DNA of 16,877 nt. Origin: a bacterium. GTDB lineage: Bacteria > Coprothermobacterota > Coprothermobacteria > Coprothermobacterales > JAADFF01. Positions 3,990 through 9,553 of the stretch are shown here, in pieces (position 1 is the stretch's first letter; each line of letters starts with the position of its first letter). Made by a program: the position numbers and the translations under genes. The stretch spans positions 1 to 16,877 of the forward strand of contig JAMORD010000209.1 of the NCBI GenBank assembly GCA_027063755.1, written 5' to 3'. The notes beneath the pieces were generated by a model. It was not told the origin of the DNA. It saw only the letters and a list, made by a program, of their open reading frames with translations, and searched no databases.

Positions 3990-4024
3990 AATATATCACT
4001 CCCGTGCGTATATGTATGTGAAAA

Positions 4025-4052
4025 ATTATAACAAGGAGGTAGAAATTATGAA
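4025..4052 (-). promoter_or_regulatory. Possible promoter of the HD/GGDEF pair
   Basis: On the minus strand a perfect TATAAT (4030-4025) lies about 36 bases upstream of the HD gene start. The best -35 candidate at 16-base spacing is TTCATA (4052-4047), only 4/6 to consensus, so this rests mainly on the -10 box. Confidence 0.3.
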
Positions 4053-4059
4053 GAAGTAA
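4033..4059 (+). promoter_or_regulatory. Strong ribosome binding site driving a three-codon reading frame
   Basis: AAGGAGGT (4033-4040) is ideally spaced for ATG 4048, but that frame is MKK followed by TAA (4057-4059). The next in-frame ATG is at 4066, too far from the site for direct initiation. The sequence therefore either encodes a start-stop leader or records a nonsense mutation in codon 4. Confidence 0.7.
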
Positions 4060-4065
4060 TTCAAC

Positions 4066-4446
4066 ATGCGTGCATGCACAACATTCATGATGGCCTGGTC
4101 GTTTGTATTTCTCTTTATATCGGGTATTGCTCTATTTATTGTATCTTCAGGTAGGGTAGCCAATTGGTCACAGTGGACATTTTTAGGACTTAATAAAAAT
4201 GCTTGGGAAGCTGTTCATGTTATATGGGCTATTGTATTTACAATTGCTACTGTGTTTCACTTAAAGTATAACTGGGCTATTTTTAAGTCGTATTTTGTGA
4301 ACTGGACTAGAGAAGTAAGGGGCGTAAGGCTACACGAGGTTGGTGTAGCTACTGTTCTATCCGTTGCCATATTTATCGGAGCTGCTGTGTCATTTGTGCC
4401 GTTTGCCTATATTATGAATACCTCTGGATATTTTAAAGATGTATGA
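4066..4446 (+). CDS. DUF4405-type membrane protein, N-terminal part
   Basis: 126 residues if translation begins at ATG 4066. Three hydrophobic helices are visible: FMMAWSFVFLFISGIALFIV, EAVHVIWAIVFTIATVF and HEVGVATVLSVAIFIGAAV. Conserved-looking His residues in AVHVIW and VFHLKYNW, plus the WSQWTFLGL segment, fit the DUF4405 family (PF14358), small cytochrome-b-like membrane proteins; haem binding is inferred, not shown. ATG 4066 has no ribosome binding site of its own. The good site at 4033-4040 serves ATG 4048, whose reading stops after three codons (ATG AAG AAG TAA). Translation here would need reinitiation six bases past that stop. The stop TGA overlaps the next start as ATGA. Confidence 0.72.
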   Translation: MRACTTFMMAWSFVFLFISGIALFIVSSGRVANWSQWTFLGLNKNAWEAVHVIWAIVFTIATVFHLKYNWAIFKSYFVNWTREVRGVRLHEVGVATVLSVAIFIGAAVSFVPFAYIMNTSGYFKDV

Positions 4447-4850
4447 GAGGAAAAAGTCCTATCCTCCAACCGGAACCTGATAAAATGACCCTTTCTGAGC
4501 TTGCAGAGCACTTTGGTGTGTCGGAAACTGCTATCAATAATTACTTAAAGGGACAGCTGGGACTTGAGCCGATGAATGCAACAGAAACACTTGAGTATTA
4601 TAAGCACAGAATGGAAGAAGAAGGTTATATTACAGATGAGGAAAAGATGGGAACATGGGATATTTACTATGCGTTAAGAGACCACTTTCAGAGTGTGGAG
4701 TCGGGAGGTAGTGAAGGAACATCAGTCATAAAAGGACAAGGATATGGTAGGTATACAGTATCAGAGCTTGCTGAAAAAGAGGGTATTGATGTGGATAAGG
4801 CTGTAGAGAACCTTCAAAATTCTTGTTGGGGGCACTGTAGACATAGATAG
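4443..4850 (+). CDS. Helix-turn-helix-like C-terminal segment of DUF4405 locus, frameshifted
   Basis: 135 residues in the frame as given. It has two similar segments: MTLSELAEHFGVSETAINNY (about residues 15-34) and YTVSELAEKEGIDVDKAVEN, the latter preceded by GQGYGR. These look like the Tl-x-E-L-A helix-turn-helix-like repeats at the C-terminus of longer DUF4405 proteins. The reading ends abnormally in SCWGHCRHR. Shifting by one base at about 4821 gives a natural continuation from 4822: LVGGTVDIDRD, then IRDIMDATGLDAESIISIM, to TAG at 4936-4938. The displaced part is a third repeat. The ATG overlaps the previous stop (ATGA), which allows translational coupling. No strong ribosome binding site precedes it. 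It is probably not a DNA-binding regulator in its own right. Confidence 0.6.
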   Translation: MRGKSPILQPEPDKMTLSELAEHFGVSETAINNYLKGQLGLEPMNATETLEYYKHRMEEEGYITDEEKMGTWDIYYALRDHFQSVESGGSEGTSVIKGQGYGRYTVSELAEKEGIDVDKAVENLQNSCWGHCRHR

Positions 4851-4961
4851 GGATACACGTATAAGAGATATTATGGATGCTACTGGGCTTGATGCAGAGT
4901 CTATTATATCCATCATGAAGACAGGTAAGACAGAGTAGAAGTGATAAGTTCTTAATAGAAA

Positions 4962-4998
4962 AGGCCGACCTGTGGGGGCAGGTCGGCCTATGTTTTAT
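4962..4998. terminator. Bidirectional terminator between DUF4405 locus and flagellin
   Basis: An 11-bp perfect stem (AGGCCGACCTG at 4962-4972 pairs with 4979-4989) with a TGGGGG loop. On the plus strand ATGTTTTATT follows. On the minus strand TTTTCTATT follows. It lies between the convergent DUF4405 locus and flagellin gene and can serve both. Confidence 0.88.
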
Positions 4999-5016
4999 TC
5001 AGGTATCTGGTTTTCA

Positions 5017-7356: not shown

Positions 7357-7404
7357 TTATAATAGTCTCCTATAAACAAAAACGATAAAAAGGTGGTGAG
7401 GACA

Positions 7405-7827
7405 TTGGCTATCCTCAAAGTTGTTGATGTAGATAAATGTATAGGGTGTATGTCGTGTATGCAGGCATGTGCTCGTTTTAGGTATCAAAGTTTTTCTCTC
7501 TATAGGGCTGCTCTTCAGGTGAAAACAAGGGGTGGTATCTCCAGCGGATTTCAGATCAATACATGCCTTGGATGTACGGAACCTGCTTGTGCTGAGGCAT
7601 GTCCTACTGAGGCACTTATTCCCCGTAAAGGGGGCGGTGTAGTGTTTAGACAAAACCTCTGTATTGGCTGTGGTGAGTGTGAAAAGGCGTGTCCCGTTGA
7701 TGCCATTCGCATGGATCCTGAGTGGCATATTCCTATAGTGTGTGTTCAGTGTGGTATTTGCACGCAGTATTGTCCCCATGAAGTTATACAGATGGTAGAA
7801 GAGGTGGTTCCCCATGTGGATAAATGA
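7405..7827 (+). CDS. Four-cluster 4Fe-4S ferredoxin subunit of aldehyde oxidoreductase
   Basis: 140 residues from TTG 7405 (MAILKVVDVDKC). AAGGTGGTGAGG stands just upstream; a GTG start at 7393 is also possible but would lie inside that site. Sixteen Cys form four groups: 12/15/18/22, 54/57/62/66, 86/89/92/96 and 113/116/119/123. Each has the C-x2-C-x2-or-4-C-x3-C pattern and three end in CP, so four [4Fe-4S] clusters are expected, as in HycB/DmsB-type electron-transfer subunits. No Tat or Sec signal is present, so it should be cytoplasmic. Its last 14 bases overlap the aldehyde:ferredoxin oxidoreductase gene. Such pairs occur in two-subunit AOR systems, where this subunit passes electrons between the tungsten/molybdenum enzyme and a soluble acceptor. 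Confidence 0.93.
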   Translation: MAILKVVDVDKCIGCMSCMQACARFRYQSFSLYRAALQVKTRGGISSGFQINTCLGCTEPACAEACPTEALIPRKGGGVVFRQNLCIGCGECEKACPVDAIRMDPEWHIPIVCVQCGICTQYCPHEVIQMVEEVVPHVDK

Positions 7828-9553
7828 TGTTAGAGTGCTTCATATAGATTTGACAAATAAAAAGGTGAAACTGGAGCACAGACCAGATCTTAAAGAATGG
7901 ATAGGGGGTACTGGTGCTGCCAGTAAGCTCTTTGAAGAGTTAAAGGGACATGAGATACCTCCAGGAGATGAAGCGTCTCCTATTATATTTGCCACAGGGC
8001 CGCTCAATGGTGTGCTTCCACTGATGACCAAGGTTGTAGCTATATATCGTTCACCATATACAGGTGATTGGGGTGAGTCTCATGCCGGTGGTCGCCTTGG
8101 TATGGTAATGGCCTATGCGGGTATAGACCTTTTGGTGATAACAGGTAAGGCAGAAAGACCTGTATATCTTGTTATAGGGCCTCACTCTGTTGAATTTAAA
8201 GATGCAAGGCATCTGTGGGGACTTGATGTGTTTACAACGGGAAGACTTATCAGACTTCATGACAAAAGTGCCAGTGGAAGAAGGAGTATCCTAAGAATAG
8301 GACCTGCCGCTGAAAGAGGTGTAAAGTTTGCCGGTGTCAATGTTGATACATTTAGGCACTTTGGTAGGTTGGGACTTGGTACCCTTATGGGTATGAAGAA
8401 TCTTAAAGCTATTGTTGTTGTAGGAGATGACTCCACTCACTTTGGTGTTAATCCTGAATATACAAAGTTTTACAAGGAGATATATGATCTTGTAGTAGGT
8501 TCTGATCTTTTGCACAAATATCATGATCTGGGGACTCCCCAAAATGTGTTGCCGCTAAATAACATTAAGTCTTTACCTACCAAGAACATGCAGAAAAGCC
8601 AATTTGAGTATGCCGAAAATATTAGTGGTGAATACTTTGCCGATAATCTTCTTGTGAGGAAGATTGCATGCTCTGGTTGCCAAGTGGGATGTATACATGT
8701 GGGACTTTTAAGGGAACAATTTGGTCCTGAACATGAATATAAATATACTCAGGTTTCTTACGACCATGAACTGATATTTGCCCTTGGTAGTATGCTTGAA
8801 ACACGAACCGCTGAAGAAGTGTTGAAACTTATAGATCAGGTGGAGAGATTAGGTCTTGATGCTATATCTTCTGGTGTAGCCCTTGCATGGACGACGGAGG
8901 CCCTCCAGAGGGGTATTATTTCTGAAAAGGATACTGGTATAAAACTTCAGTGGGGAGATACAGAGCGCTATCTTGAAGCTCTTCAAATGCTTGCCTATAG
9001 GGTTAATGATTTCTGGCATCTCCTTGGTGAGGGAACAATGGCGGCAGCCCGTGAGTATGGTGGAGAGGACTTTGCAGCGGTGCTAGGCCAAGAGATGGCT
9101 GGTTATGCTACGGGTCCTGTTTTTTATGTATCTCAGGCAATGGGTGTCAGACATTCCCACCTTGATACAGCAGGCTATTCGTTTGACCAGAAAGCTACAG
9201 AATACACACCAGAAGCGGCACTAGAGTATATTGTCAGTGAGGATAGACGAAGGGTTGTGCTAACCTCCCTTGTATCCTGTCTATTTGCAAGAGGACTTTA
9301 TACATGGGATAGGATAAAGAAGGGGCTTTCCCTTATTGGTTATGAAAAGCAAGCTAAGCATGTTGAAGAGATCGGTGATGAGATAAGAAGACTTAGGTGG
9401 AAACTAAAGGTGGCTATGGGGTTTGATCTTGATAATGTCAAGATTCCTAAACGCTACTTTGAAACAGAGACATTTAGGGGGAAACCTGATCCCGAGTTTA
9501 CCAATAAACTGATAAAGATGTATGCTTCCCACATTAAAGAGATTATTAAATAA
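7814..9553 (+). CDS. Aldehyde:ferredoxin oxidoreductase family, catalytic subunit
   Basis: A 579-residue cytoplasmic enzyme of the tungsten/molybdenum bis-pterin AOR family, interconverting aldehydes and carboxylic acids with ferredoxin-level electrons. ATG 7814 follows GAGGTGG. The N-terminal pterin-binding domain contains WIGGTGAASKLF, IFATGPLNG, GDWGESHAGGRLG and LGTLMGMKNLKAI. The [4Fe-4S] ligands are Cys286, Cys289 and Cys293 (CSGCQVGC) and Cys489 (SLVSCLF), almost the same positions as in the Pyrococcus furiosus enzyme. GVRHSH at 444-449 lies where the family has its active-site His (inferred from position). Length and domain order are normal and no lesion is seen. The substrate cannot be told from sequence; it may be a tungsten or molybdenum enzyme. 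It is coupled to the ferredoxin gene by a 14-base overlap. Confidence 0.95.
   Translation: MWINDVRVLHIDLTNKKVKLEHRPDLKEWIGGTGAASKLFEELKGHEIPPGDEASPIIFATGPLNGVLPLMTKVVAIYRSPYTGDWGESHAGGRLGMVMAYAGIDLLVITGKAERPVYLVIGPHSVEFKDARHLWGLDVFTTGRLIRLHDKSASGRRSILRIGPAAERGVKFAGVNVDTFRHFGRLGLGTLMGMKNLKAIVVVGDDSTHFGVNPEYTKFYKEIYDLVVGSDLLHKYHDLGTPQNVLPLNNIKSLPTKNMQKSQFEYAENISGEYFADNLLVRKIACSGCQVGCIHVGLLREQFGPEHEYKYTQVSYDHELIFALGSMLETRTAEEVLKLIDQVERLGLDAISSGVALAWTTEALQRGIISEKDTGIKLQWGDTERYLEALQMLAYRVNDFWHLLGEGTMAAAREYGGEDFAAVLGQEMAGYATGPVFYVSQAMGVRHSHLDTAGYSFDQKATEYTPEAALEYIVSEDRRRVVLTSLVSCLFARGLYTWDRIKKGLSLIGYEKQAKHVEEIGDEIRRLRWKLKVAMGFDLDNVKIPKRYFETETFRGKPDPEFTNKLIKMYASHIKEIIK

Follow-up and report, generated by a model that had tools for sequence, protein, structure and literature searches.

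Membrane proteins of the DUF4405 family have been described as cytochromes, and binding of heme b is on record for a purified member of the family and for FezC, a related protein; these published heme-binding proteins are tied to flavinylation or ferrosome loci (PMC11334425). The stretch of DNA analyzed here (the window, 16,877 nucleotides, which is contig C209 of G000, a MAG of 1.5 Mb in 251 contigs that is 88% complete) holds a gene of the same family: its open frame past an early TAA matches Pfam DUF4405 (PF14358) with 59.3 bits, well above the cutoff of 26.7, and it retains both His 57 and His 71, which are invariant in our alignment. We infer that the ancestral protein of the window was likewise a cytochrome. 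There are two differences from the described DUF4405 cytochromes, as the subfamily in the window has C-terminal HTH/IF2_N-like repeats and the window copy is broken; in addition, no link to flavinylation or ferrosome loci of the published kind was noticed at the window locus.

Proteins in which HTH/IF2_N-like repeats are fused to a membrane domain of cytochrome-like type form a DUF4405 subfamily that we observed in L009:333-1223, L012, L013, L014 and L017, including distant genomes, and it is feasible that this subfamily acts as a redox-linked sensor. The DUF4405 gene of L013 and that of L014 each have as their neighbor a gene that looks ferritin-like, presumably DUF2202-like. Elsewhere in the window, at 7393-9553, a 4Fe-4S ferredoxin-like gene is followed by a gene of the aldehyde ferredoxin oxidoreductase family, with a 14-nt overlap between their ORFs.

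The initial annotation had singled out the very start of the DUF4405 gene, and re-reading positions 4033-4068 shows that it had the letters right: behind a good ribosome binding site, 4048-4068 reads ATG AAG AAG TAA TTC AAC ATG in one frame, that is, a start codon (4048-4050), two AAG codons, a TAA (4057-4059) and, six nucleotides past this stop, another ATG (4066-4068). Two explanations had been offered for this arrangement, either that a sense codon had turned into a stop or that the cell makes a tripeptide and then reinitiates, as a translational control device.

The position of the stop can be compared in a close relative, the same-genus MAG G001 (Dictyoglomota), hereafter the sister, in which the locus (L009/L027) lies on the 6.2-kb contig JAADFF010000032.1. 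In the window and the sister alike, the DUF4405 gene is preceded by an HD-domain gene and followed by a flagellin gene, and the syntenic sister gene (L009:333-1223) is a single uninterrupted ORF of 296 aa plus stop. Its protein starts at ATG 333 with MKKRFNMRAFTTF (MKKRFNMRA); residues 10-76 make up the DUF4405 domain, and a region that is HTH/IF2_N-like lies at around 140-184. As the sister ORF is uninterrupted and has a sense codon at the position of the window's stop, the conversion of a sense codon in a DUF4405 gene is supported, but not in the form first proposed (AAA or another xAA codon to TAA): codon 4 of the sister is CGA, which is two transitions from TAA. The statement that homologues begin with MKK followed by FN-x-R is true of the sister; among more distant homologues the N-terminus is variable.

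Alignment with the sister gene showed that the early stop is one of four lesions that the window copy carries within 891 bp (Table 1). Three of these had been missed by the initial annotation, namely the TGA at 4444-4446, the loss of one nucleotide at about 4451 and the gain of one at about 4822. Consistent with the alignment, a search of the whole G000 genome with the sister protein retrieved the window copy as three separate pieces, which lie in two frames and contain one TAA and one TGA. No second intact copy of the DUF4405 gene was found in G000. The 135-aa ORF at 4443-4850 corresponds to the central part of the DUF4405 gene read in a shifted frame, and at residue 33 (sister numbering) the window has Ser where all seven aligned homologues have Pro. 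Two recoding explanations were considered and rejected. Stop-codon reassignment is contradicted by the occurrence of both TAA and TGA in frame together with two frameshifts, and real ortholog pairs lack internal stops. A programmed frameshift at the A run at 4451 would be unable to rescue the upstream frame, because the site is 3' of the in-frame TGA and the TGA therefore comes first.

Table 1. Features of the DUF4405 locus in the window
Feature	Position	Strand	Basis or remark
Shine-Dalgarno sequence AAGGAGGT	4033..4040	+	7-nt spacer to ATG 4048; same letters in sister L009
Degraded DUF4405 and HTH/IF2_N-repeat gene, ancestral reading frame	4048..4938	+	Sister has 296 codons plus stop
Lesion 1, in-frame TAA at codon 4	4057..4059	+	Sister CGA, two substitutions
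Lesion 2, in-frame TGA at codon 133	4444..4446	+	Sister TGG
Lesion 3, -1 frameshift, A5 run (A6 in sister)	4451..4455	+	Sister alignment
Lesion 4, one extra nucleotide (+1) that the sister lacks	4822..4823	+	Sister alignment
DUF4405 stretch still open (126 aa), from internal Met 4066 up to TGA	4066..4446	+	Matches Pfam DUF4405
Accidental 135-aa ORF covering most HTH/IF2_N-like repeats	4443..4850	+	ATGA-overlap start; ended by lesion 4
Intrinsic-terminator-like hairpin 3' of gene	4962..4989	+	Conserved in sister
Tract of unusually low divergence from sister	3995..5010	.	About 95% identity; flanks mostly 70-89%

Could the start, stop and restart form a control device, in which a deliberate MKK tripeptide governs reinitiation at 4066? 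The arrangement has the features of leader-peptide and reinitiation control as generally known, with a minimal ORF behind a strong ribosome site and another ATG soon after its stop, and these features are what speaks for such a device. However, the arrangement is not conserved. The 5' UTR (from about 3995), the ribosome site and the first three codons are identical in the window and the sister, yet the sister has no stop, and its counterpart of ATG 4066 is an ordinary internal Met. Neither a leader tripeptide nor a stop of this kind is present in the sister or in six further homologues. The structure of the RNA in the start region is not unusual either, its fold being weaker than those of shuffled sequences (z = +1.4), and no Rfam match was found there. 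Furthermore, the gene downstream of such a device is itself broken at three other places, and the device would leave those lesions without explanation. That the tripeptide is a control device thus seems scarcely credible to us.

The homologues bear also on how much damage the early stop would do. Four other genomes have a single ORF of 274-292 aa with the same architecture, a DUF4405 domain with repeats at the C-terminus; two additional genomes have a shorter homologue, likewise a single ORF. Two homologues start near the position equivalent to ATG 4066 (these starts were chosen among possible ATGs), which raises the possibility that the first six residues may be dispensable; because of this, the stop at codon 4 would be the mildest of the four lesions, if ATG 4066 is usable. 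The same two starts favor a remodeled gene that is still functional, in which start or reinitiation at ATG 4066 would produce a 126-aa DUF4405 cytochrome without the repeats, perhaps coupled to a 135-aa repeat protein from the ATGA at 4443. In keeping with this, the TGA falls past the cytochrome-like domain and the loss of one nucleotide brings ATG 4443 into frame with the repeats. Nonetheless, the fourth lesion shortens the repeats themselves, a distance of 25 nt separates ATG 4066 from the ribosome site, the conserved Pro has been lost, dN/dS is raised and the split arrangement is absent from all the homologues compared. We consider a remodeled gene improbable, and it is highly improbable that there was a gene fission in which the stops and frameshift gave rise to a reinitiated 126-aa DUF4405 protein and a separate, translationally coupled repeat protein, both still made.

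A different question is "Are the lesions real?", as the organism itself could have an unbroken DUF4405 gene and the consensus of the MAG could be wrong at this place. The G000 assembly is fragmented and incomplete, two lesions consist of the gain or loss of a single base, one of them in an A run, and another G000 gene, L166, has a frame-breaking 10-nt gap, so that a locally poor consensus at the DUF4405 gene is possible. Against this, four separate lesions occur in a single gene of 891 bp and none in the other window genes compared, a pattern closer to decay than to random error; two base changes are needed to make the TAA, and the elevated dN/dS extends along the gene. The background disruption rate was low in the sampled sequence, which covered about 316 kb of G000 and 901 kb of G001. 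There, 14 of the 116 sister ORFs with a G000 match were flagged; these 14 comprise the DUF4405 gene itself, over-extended starts, antisense or spurious ORFs, the L166 gap and a paralogue that matches the L166 place. Based on these comparisons an erroneous consensus is unlikely, and the four lesions would be biological rather than assembly errors. L166 (G000:C30), whose gap is at about 902, encodes a membrane protein with a methyl-accepting-chemotaxis-like C-terminus, and its counterpart L116 is intact.

We prefer a recent pseudogene to a reinitiation device because it accounts for all four lesions (TAA, TGA, -1 and +1) whereas the device covers only the first, and the early stop is probably one lesion of a gene that was recently inactivated and is decaying. 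The ancestral gene would have encoded a 296-aa membrane protein in which a DUF4405 (heme-b cytochrome-like) domain at the N-terminus was combined with HTH/IF2_N-like repeats, and would have had its own ribosome site and terminator between the HD-domain gene and the flagellin gene; the window lineage would then have gained two nonsense codons and two single-nucleotide indels, leaving the gene in its present decay. The counterpoint to a pseudogene is that the start context is still perfect and that the DUF4405 domain, with its two conserved histidines, is still open.

Relaxed selection on the broken gene is apparent from its comparison with the sister (dS 0.13, dN 0.033), which gave a dN/dS of 0.26, versus a median of 0.06 among 123 sampled ortholog pairs (median dS 0.94), although its divergence as a whole is not neutral. 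The ratio is 0.23 in the first part of the gene and 0.34 in the second, in which dS is 0.05; for the other window genes it is 0.02-0.17 in 11 of the 12 tested, the twelfth having a saturated dS. The 23 synonymous and 22 nonsynonymous changes in the broken gene depart from the neutral expectation (p = 3e-5), and from this synonymous excess it follows that most of the divergence is older than the inactivation. If the gene is dead, then, its death would have been recent relative to the divergence.

With its two nonsense codons, two indels, raised dN/dS and an intact syntenic ortholog in the sister, the window gene is like an ordinary bacterial pseudogene, but it is unlike one in that it diverges less from the sister than its neighbors do, not more. 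Both of its parts are among the lowest dS values of the 123 ortholog pairs, and the tract of low divergence in which it lies ranks second among 435 overlapping 1-kb windows of the sample. There is a more divergent patch within the tract at about 4300-4400. Protein selection can be excluded as the cause of the likeness because synonymous and intergenic divergence are low as well and the gene is broken. What, then, made the tract so similar? These patterns of sequence divergence suggest that a single-gene locus was recently exchanged between close relatives of both species and then decayed in the window lineage, the exchange being placed before the decay because of the low dS of the tract. A search for a mobile origin gave no match among plasmid or phage records.

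We conclude that this is most likely a case of ordinary gene loss, and not a tiny control peptide. Our analysis highlights that a start-stop-restart motif that catches the eye can turn out to be a single lesion in a gene undergoing decay, which cannot be recognized without a sister genome and the remainder of the gene. In addition, the broken tract, with its low divergence at synonymous sites, offers a modest lead to the exchange of genes between two species in a little-studied lineage.
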